A stretch of DNA of 64,000 nt from Prevotella melaninogenica (GTDB taxonomy: Bacteria; Bacteroidota; Bacteroidia; Bacteroidales; Bacteroidaceae). The position numbers were made by a program, and so were the translations under genes. The notes under the pieces are model-generated. The model was not told the origin of the DNA. It searched no databases and saw only the letters and a list, made by a program, of their open reading frames with translations. How positions within the stretch are numbered: the stretch's first letter is position 1; each line of letters opens with the position of its first letter. Location: assembly GCF_018127925.1 (NCBI RefSeq), contig NZ_CP072348.1, positions 1,284,001 through 1,348,000 of the forward strand, given 5' to 3'. Shown here in pieces: positions 48,619-49,404 of the stretch.

Positions 48619-48649
48619 TTGCCCATTCAATTTATTCTTCTTACCTTTG
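48619..48649 (+). promoter_or_regulatory. Promoter of the (AC)22 locus
   Basis: TTGC (48619-48622), 19 bp, TACCTTTG (48642-48649), 21 bp before the ATG at 48670. Confidence 0.8.
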
Positions 48650-48669
48650 CGGCCGTGAACAAATTAGCA

Positions 48670-48825
48670 ATGACATATCCAGCCAATCCAGCACAGCAAA
48701 GAAACTTTGATTTCTTTGCCTTTTTTAGTGCTTTATATTTGGTAGTTTCAGATATTTTGCTAACACACACACACACACACACACACACACACACACACAC
48801 ACACACAGGCGCACCTAGCGTTTAA
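48670..48825 (+). CDS. Short ORF with (AC)22, in the 'off' frame
   Basis: With 22 repeats this reads 51 codons: MTYPANPAQQRNFDFFAFFS..., a hydrophobic stretch (about residues 12-30), the repeated Thr-His dipeptide, and GAPSV before TAA. The start codon is at a good distance from a consensus promoter. It resembles no protein I know. Its importance is that changing the repeat count by one would fuse it to the open frame at 48800-49168 (see findings). Whether a protein is made needs testing. Confidence 0.5.
   Translation: MTYPANPAQQRNFDFFAFFSALYLVVSDILLTHTHTHTHTHTHTHTGAPSV
48763..48806 (+). repeat. (AC)22 dinucleotide microsatellite
   Basis: A pure, uninterrupted run of 22 AC units, inside an ORF just downstream of a consensus promoter. 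Such tracts are rare in bacteria and are the typical hot spots of slipped-strand phase variation. Confidence 0.98.
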
Positions 48826-49168
48826 TCATACTTTTTTTCCTCCATCCTACGCGCGCGCGAAGCGTGTCGTAACCCTTGTAAACAAAGGACTTCCTAGAGT
48901 TTCCTTTGTTCGTTTTTTTGTGTCCGTTTGCGAGCAGGCTAAAAGGCAAAATAAGGACATTTTAAGCACTGATTTTACCATAACAAGTACTTGTAATTCT
49001 CTAGTAATAGTTTGTTTTTTCTCGTTGATTTCTCGGGCAGGCAGTGGTAATACGCTGTCTGCCTGTAGAGAGGAAGCGTGCAGACTGTTAAGAGAGATTG
49101 ACGAGAAGGTTATCAGGATGTATATAATAAAAGGTGAGCAACGAAGCCACATAATAGAGAGTAGATAA
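48803..49168 (+). other. ~120-codon open frame reached only if (AC)n changes phase
   Basis: In the frame one repeat away from the upstream ORF, the sequence stays open from the repeat to TAA at 49166-49168. It reads QAHLAFNHTFFPPSYARAKR..., a hydrophobic segment NSLVIVCFFSLISRAG (about 75-90), then CREEACRLLREIDEKVIRMY and ends GEQRSHIIESR. It has no good start codon of its own except GTG at 48920. The product is not recognised. It ends 29 bp before the next gene. Confidence 0.45.
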
Positions 49169-49197
49169 CAACTATTTTTAATCAAATCAAAAAAGCA

Positions 49198-49404
49198 ATG
49201 AGAAAGAAACAAGAAAAGAAGGATTATTCTGCACCAAGTTGCACGATAATCCAAGTGAGCGAAACCACTTATTTGATGGACACTTCTTTCCCCAGTCAGC
49301 ACAACCCAGCTCAATCAGGCGGAAGTTTTGGTGATGCCAAGCAGGCTCCAAGCTGGATGACTGAAAGTGAAGAAGCAACAGAGCATTCTTCATGGGAAAA
49401 CTAA
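49198..49404 (+). CDS. 68-aa protein upstream of the fimbrillin-like gene
   Basis: I do not recognise a named family. The N-terminus is very basic (MRKKQEKKDYSAPSC) and the centre Ser/Thr/Gln-rich (VSETTYLMDTSFPSQHNPAQSGGSFGDAKQ), and the C-terminus is acidic (ESEEATEHSSWEN). Small genes with this K-then-...G.AK pattern sit in front of fimbrillin-type genes in Prevotella, in my general experience. There is no signal peptide. It is 57 bp upstream of the lipoprotein gene and likely in the same mRNA. Confidence 0.65.
   Translation: MRKKQEKKDYSAPSCTIIQVSETTYLMDTSFPSQHNPAQSGGSFGDAKQAPSWMTESEEATEHSSWEN

Follow-up and report, generated by a model that had tools for sequence, protein, structure and literature searches.

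In classical frameshift contingency loci, such as opa of Neisseria and lic of Haemophilus, slippage in a coding repeat changes the reading frame of surface antigens, and many such loci are found per genome. Prevotella species frequently live as commensals in the mouth, gut and vagina and can act as opportunists; the open-access literature searched yielded no report that they use slippage-based phase variation. For the pil1 locus of Streptococcus gallolyticus, it has been demonstrated that translation of a leader through a terminator is set by the number of GCAGA repeats, and pil3 has been described as well (Danne et al. 2014, PMC3894217). In Bacteroides, phase variation proceeds by DNA inversion, with invertible promoters and recombinases at many surface loci (PMC11868660). 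A term search of the latter source, a 2025 review of phase variation, returned neither attenuation, gallolyticus nor Prevotella, and a term check of one Prevotella paper (PMC11388281) returned slippage only in a reference on Gardnerella.

The locus described here lies in a window of 64,000 nucleotides of Prevotella melaninogenica, i.e., the whole stretch of DNA that was analysed, and is made up of the following parts:

48619..48649, + strand: promoter, which we take by its motif to be of the Bacteroidota type, with TTGC at 48619-48622 (TTG at 48619) and TACCTTTG at 48642-48649, by sequence reading
48655..48825, + strand: leader ORF in its present phase, starting at GTG 48655 or ATG 48670 in the same frame and stopping at TAA 48823-48825
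48696..48726, + strand: T1 hairpin, GCAAAGAAA-CTTTGA-TTTCTTTGC followed by CTTTTTT (six T), inside the leader ORF and upstream of the tract
48735..48755, + strand: H1 palindrome or hairpin, directly 5′ of TTTGCTA
48763..48806, + strand: pure (AC)22 tract, by sequence reading
48816..48825, + strand: early stops closing two of the three frames, TAG at 48816 and TAA at 48823
48809..49168, + strand: third frame (R), open through T2 and ending at TAA 49166-49168, 29 nt before the ATG of the small protein
48881..48919, + strand: T2, a hairpin resembling an intrinsic terminator, AACAAAGGACTT...TTTCCTTTGTT with a T run behind it
49034..49065, + strand: second strong hairpin, without a T run, CGGGCAGGCAG...CTGTCTGCCTG
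49198..49404, + strand: small protein of 68 aa, first gene of the cassette, with its own ATG at 49198
49462..51048, + strand: putative surface lipoprotein of 528 aa with a hypervariable C-terminal region, with its own ATG at 49462 and paralogues behind other leaders
51272..51739, + strand: HU-like protein (PF18291, HU-HIG), the recurring third gene of the cassette, by profile match

The first-pass annotation had read from the letters a promoter with its boxes, an in-frame start, 22 AC units and a third frame open to 49168, and all of these are present on direct reading. The leader ORF indeed runs for 51 codons with 22 units, to the TAA at 48823-48825, and the other early frame stops where it was said to, at ACC TAG (48816-48818). 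Tracts of 20 or 23 units (n mod 3 = 2) do bring the leader into the open frame, as was also claimed; the resulting ORFs have 164 and 166 codons instead of about 175. T2, the further leaders and the CT class described below go beyond that annotation. The window copy is not in the open frame; its T2 sits within the third frame, past the points where the other two frames have stopped. The tract starts 113 nt past the -7 element and not between promoter elements, and it lies outside the coding sequence of the probable switched protein, given the separate ATGs at 49198 and 49462.

Directly upstream of the promoter, at 48415-48585, there is a MITE-like element with the inverted ends GTGTGTCAAAATGCAAAT ... 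ATTTGCATTTTGACACA. The cassette is adjoined on the same side by a Radical-SAM/SPASM protein (47080-48330), which presumably resembles anaerobic sulfatase maturases. The window also holds arrays of 22-bp tandem repeats, several of them with a palindromic core, at 9341, 18849, 26700, 41925, 46866, 51123, 55726 and 62955.

We consider it likely, judging from the sequences compared below, that this locus is a phase-variable transcription attenuator, in which repeat slippage sets whether a translating ribosome suppresses T2 and so switches the transcription of the downstream surface protein. Transcription would start a little before a short leader ORF whose frame enters (AC)n, and the gain or loss of AC units would shift the leader frame; near-identical copies do differ in n, and slipped-strand mispairing is the probable cause. 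In two of the phases (OFF), the ribosome would stop a few codons past the tract, about 54 nt before T2, which would then form and end transcription. In the third phase (ON), the ribosome would meet no stop until beyond T2 and would keep the hairpin open, and RNA polymerase would reach the operon of the small protein, the lipoprotein and the HU-like protein. With its 22 units, the window copy would be in an OFF phase.

The window leader is one of at least 60 in its genome, 41 with AC and 19 with CT tracts, made up of 40 D(AC)7 tracts, 19 V(CT)7 tracts and one leader with six AC units. Genome-wide, 40 of 40 D(AC)7 and 19 of 19 V(CT)7 tracts fall in such leaders; a tract beginning with the other letter escapes both patterns, and short-tract leaders may add to the 60. 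A first look with 611 bases around the window tract (79 candidates) gave 40 scored matches in the genome at 79-100% identity; 36 of these have between 6 and 38 AC units, and in the other four the same slot is taken by a CT tract. The leader, about 600 nt long, is dispersed and alike between copies within the genome. Across all copies, tracts range from 4 units, the lower limit of the search, to 42.

Relatives of this leader are found in other genomes as well. Within the genus, 22 of the 398 genomes searched have the core TTTGCTA followed by at least four AC units (40 copies in the window genome, G000; 23 in G316, 12 in G138, 10 in G092 and fewer in the rest), with zero matches to the reversed pattern used as a control in the same 398 genomes. 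In the family sample, 9 of 399 genomes have the core, two of them from other genera (G455 with five copies and G753 with six); the reversed pattern gives six single matches here, from which G455 and G753 stand out, and both have the architecture. In the order sample (6 of 393 genomes), four genomes, G899, G909, G1001 and G1071, are single matches outside the family, which is chance level against three matches of the reversed pattern. Relatives of the small protein are present in Prevotella vespertina, P. jejuni and P. veroralis. Between genomes, the letters diverge strongly while the order of parts is kept: promoter, leader frame, T1, H1, tract, early stops, a GC-rich hairpin and T2. In G316, a sequence of about 25 nt at the end of the query matches dozens more places in both orientations (107 matches in total), and appears there as a dispersed short inverted repeat.

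Our main set comprises 162 copies under 28 genome labels (the P. jejuni record may coincide with another label), 138 with AC and 24 with CT tracts taking the same slot, and is free of exact duplicates and of copies with fewer than 115 nt behind the tract. It draws on 10 of the 12 pattern copies of G138 and on all counted copies of the other genus genomes apart from G000; nine further G000 copies bring the analysed total to 171. A hairpin-pattern search (89 of 398 genomes, five matches to the reversed pattern) also picks ordinary promoters and served solely to find CT copies. Clustering took 112 of 113 copies, leaving out L142, which contains an N, and the tests on 33 clusters cover AC copies only.

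The frame in front of the tract is kept open. From promoter to tract, it is uninterrupted in 155 of the 162 copies (133 of 138 AC, 22 of 24 CT), and all 30 of the 30 distinct representatives tested have it open over -96..-6, where dinucleotide shuffles would give 3.8; the 31st representative, from G266, was kept out of this test, and all five copies of that genome read a different frame, which starts at an ATG of its own. A start codon in the leader frame is present in 158 of 162 copies (ATG in 136, GTG or TTG in 22), and 154 of 162 have TAnnTTTG at a distance of 80-260 nt in front of the tract. As in pil1-type loci, the tandem repeat is located inside a leader ORF that starts just behind the promoter. 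Counting against the attenuator are four of the 162 leader frames, which have no ATG, GTG or TTG between promoter and tract, and L050, in which the frame breaks upstream of the tract.

Behind the tract, the three frames are treated unequally. At least one of them is open through T2 in 159 of 162 copies and exactly one in 144; over the 171 copies, exactly one is open in 153, two in 15 and none in three. The three copies with no such frame and the 15 with two, notably four of the five from G455, also count against our explanation. The earlier annotation had named loss of the downstream frame among relatives as a way to refute its proposal; some frame open through T2 is present in 168 of the 171 copies. 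Among AC clusters, one or more frames pass T2 in 32 of 33 (17.9 expected), 26 of 33 have exactly one versus 14.4 expected from shuffles (p=3e-5), and in 18 of 33 two frames are shut within 40 nt while the third stays open for at least 95 nt (5.4 expected). The closed-frame stop lies at a median of 54 nt before T2 and the open-frame stop at a median of 89 nt beyond it. The repeat number modulo 3 places the leader stop before or beyond T2, as in pil1-type loci.

T2 itself, about 70 nt behind the tract, recurs with quite different letters. Its hairpin score exceeds all 40 shuffles in 21 of 33 clusters and does not in the remaining 12, which count against the attenuator; for the window copy, about one of 40 shuffles scores as well (p=0.049). 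T2 was searched in a narrow stretch, since a wider scan often picked the second hairpin instead. By anatomy, the leaders would share with pil1 a premature intrinsic terminator between the leader and the genes.

Which frame is the open one varies by lineage. The first-pass annotation had proposed for it, as one of two options, a membrane-associated product, which the comparison of copies does not bear out: substitutions before T2 fall on the three codon positions as 37/31/41 in 34 of the 38 AC copies of G000 (the four that do not align gap-free were left out), no selection on the peptide was seen by this measure, and the sequence, length and continuation of the frame differ between copies. Being open, rather than the peptide, therefore seems to be what is kept in the third frame. 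The lack of codon-level constraint counts against the attenuator explanation, and so does the small loss of openness to be expected under random substitution (3.3 of 34 copies, none observed).

The continuation of the open frame bears on the rival that survives best, translational phase variation only, in which leader translation runs into or stops beside the small protein or the lipoprotein (coupling or N-terminal fusion), as in classical frameshift contingency genes, and the hairpin is incidental. G000 copies close the open frame ahead of the small protein, and in the window it stops 29 nt short of an independent ATG, which fits poorly with such a scheme; several copies of G003, G042 and G316, in which it enters the small protein, fit better, and so do L151, L153 and L155 of G266, the only ones in which it is fused to the large surface protein. 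We regard this rival as unlikely, given that 88 of the 174 open frames reach no more than 90 nt past T2 before they stop and that a hairpin recurs at about +70 with changed letters.

Repeat number differs between close copies. Where both flanks of two copies of the same class agree in at least 95 of 100 bases (50 pairs), the repeat number differs in 44 pairs and the phase in 25. One pair in G316 differs by a single AC unit (n=21, closed; n=20, open) and by nothing else over 3280 nt; it could stem from a recent duplication or represent two alleles of the same locus. At a corresponding locus, G017 has 24 units (open) and G100 has 4 (closed), with 98% identity downstream.

The open phase is used in 18 of 153 copies, where one third would be expected if slippage were neutral (p=1.4e-9), and in 5 of 59 copies of G000 (L021, L032, L052, L247 and L250; p=1.1e-5); both p-values treat related copies as independent. 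By class, the open phase accounts for 16 of 120 AC and 2 of 24 CT copies of the main set. The two closed phases are about equally used (67 and 59 of 126 closed copies), which serves as a built-in control. We read the uneven occupancy, which goes the way the attenuator predicts, as probable selection or bias for OFF in sequenced lines, and not as proof of expression states. The core of what the first-pass annotation proposed, a slippage switch that acts on the downstream operon, is well supported by the comparison of copies.

Tracts are longer in open-frame than in closed copies (p=0.003), which may leave room for an effect of length itself. This would suit a neutral or structural microsatellite, i.e., an RNA spacer, a protein-binding AC-rich RNA or a recombination hot spot, with the frame pattern incidental, and so would the hairpins on both sides of the tract and a leader of about 600 nt that is dispersed and similar between copies. 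Such a microsatellite is very improbable, however, with CT in place of AC in 24 of 162 copies, a frame architecture above that of shuffles and an uneven phase occupancy.

The elements upstream of the tract are less uniform. Of 30 distinct representatives, 17 have a T1 score that none of 40 shuffles reaches and 20 have p<=0.05, with stem letters that differ between representatives; in 7 of 30, T1 is weak or missing (score below 15), which counts against the attenuator explanation. For H1, between 23 and 30 of the 30 representatives retain each of the seven pairs, with a T-A/A-T exchange at -28/-8. This is weak evidence, as a one-base slide scores equally for several pairs. A palindrome resembling H1, TTTGGTNNNNYCNRATAWTTT, is found about 20 nt before TAYCTTTG in ordinary-looking promoters of other genomes (e.g., L228, L233, L241, L243 and L245).

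A near-invariant TTTG precedes TA(AC)n by 19 nt: 30 of the 31 distinct leaders have it, and the remaining one has CTTG. This exceeds what coding needs and counts against the attenuator. TTTG-N19-TA directly before the tract resembles Bacteroidota promoters minus the final TTTG, and the tract could be thought to modulate an internal promoter; the fixed spacing and the presence of the same palindrome at ordinary-looking promoters elsewhere agree with this. We hold it to be highly improbable: no TTTG follows in AC or CT tracts, and the frame pattern and T2 are left unaccounted for.

Since AC and CT tracts share one slot, slippage and frame would be what matters, and not the letters of the repeat. 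Amino-acid-sensing attenuation, in which a poly-(Thr-His) leader peptide stalls ribosomes at low charged tRNA, deserves the least credence of all, for although AC reads as alternating Thr and His in any frame ahead of a terminator-like hairpin, the CT class would read Leu-Ser, the unit number ranges from 4 to 42 and the downstream genes are not biosynthetic. Poly-Thr-His attenuation was rejected together with AC-specific RNA or DNA binding, given the CT tracts in the same place and the lack of conserved codons for a sensed amino acid.

The probable product of the switch proposed here, a phase-variable attenuator, is the putative lipoprotein of 528 aa. It has no Pfam or NCBIfam match and no solved structure matching by sequence, and the 68-aa protein in front of it likewise has no match in Pfam or NCBIfam. 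Behind the first 40 G000 leaders, the order is mostly small protein, putative lipoprotein of 513-595 aa and HU-like protein; over all genomes, 89 of the 139 loci with a downstream flank of 3.5 kb or more have an HU-like ORF. A loose lipobox motif occurs in 106 of the 147 downstream proteins found. Pfam was scanned with 61 of these, picked for diversity: 13 have BspA-type leucine-rich repeats and five are fimbrillin-like (Mfa_like_1), single proteins match Mfa2, FimA, a carboxypeptidase-regulatory-like domain and a histidine kinase, and the rest are mostly unclassified.

The last 80 or so residues of the lipoproteins (e.g., 50800-51045 in the window) set hypervariable positions in a conserved frame, YFYLPALG..YWSSSA.., in about 40 paralogues, and are perhaps a binding surface under diversifying selection. 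An origin of these variable ends from a diversity-generating retroelement (DGR) was considered: the genome has three RVT_1 matches, judged by eye not to be DGR-like. They are a neighbouring pair of reverse-transcriptase ORFs and a separate one (C1:524355-526243 and C2:1524203-1524793; L087-L089); we take the pair to recall paired defence reverse transcriptases and the other to be retron-like.

Seen across the genome, the leaders may form a combinatorial switchboard, a reading towards which we lean only slightly. A standard cassette of promoter, T1, H1, tract, early stops in two frames and T2 would stand before at least 60 operons, mostly of surface proteins, with the tract swapped between AC and CT and its logic unchanged. 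Most operons would be OFF, each cell would display a small and changing subset of hypervariable lipoproteins and adhesins, and the displayed set of surface proteins would differ from cell to cell. If so, each cell would have an unusually large repertoire of switchable surface proteins, and the switchboard would be a slippage-based counterpart to the invertible promoters of Bacteroides; it would then exceed any set of attenuator-type phase switches known to us from a single genome. If the proposed mechanism is right, one could predict the state of about 60 operons by counting repeats in a genome or metagenome, and antigen display, adhesion and strain behaviour in the genus would become directly testable. 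It would also mean that slippage switches under terminator control can spread across dozens of surface operons in one genome.

Compared with known systems, the Prevotella leaders would share with classical contingency loci the frame-shifting slippage, the surface antigens and the many loci per genome. In those loci, however, the tract is in the switched gene itself, whereas here it is in a separate leader, the G266 fusions excepted, with a terminator-like hairpin behind it. With the inversion systems of Bacteroides, they would have in common the phylum and the many surface loci switched in combinations; slippage tracts need no recombinase, in contrast to invertible promoters (PMC11868660).

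The closest likeness is to pil1 and pil3 of S. gallolyticus as described by Danne et al. (PMC3894217). In both cases, a repeat lies in the ORF of a leader peptide, a premature stem-loop terminator (predicted in Prevotella) follows downstream, the repeat number puts the leader stop either well before or within or after the terminator, and a surface structure is the output, a probable one in Prevotella. The OFF stop is placed 39-49 bp before the terminator in pil1, close to the median of 54 nt in Prevotella (PMC3894217). As leader translation through the terminator is set by repeat number in pil1, we take the Prevotella leaders to work alike; their membership in the pil1 type would rest on anatomy, function having been shown for pil1 and pil3 and inferred from sequence for Prevotella (PMC3894217). 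The differences concern the repeat and the scale, i.e., GCAGA pentanucleotides at two pilus loci versus AC or CT dinucleotides in at least 60 leaders of one genome, as well as the phases, both out-of-frame phases being high in pil1 whereas usually one phase of three is open in Prevotella (PMC3894217). Unlike pil1 and pil3, most Prevotella leaders have the extra hairpin T1 before the tract, and they belong to Bacteroidota, with lipoproteins and leucine-rich-repeat adhesins behind the switch. What is new relative to pil1 and pil3 is the phylum, the two kinds of dinucleotide tract, the usually single open phase of three and the genome-wide scale.
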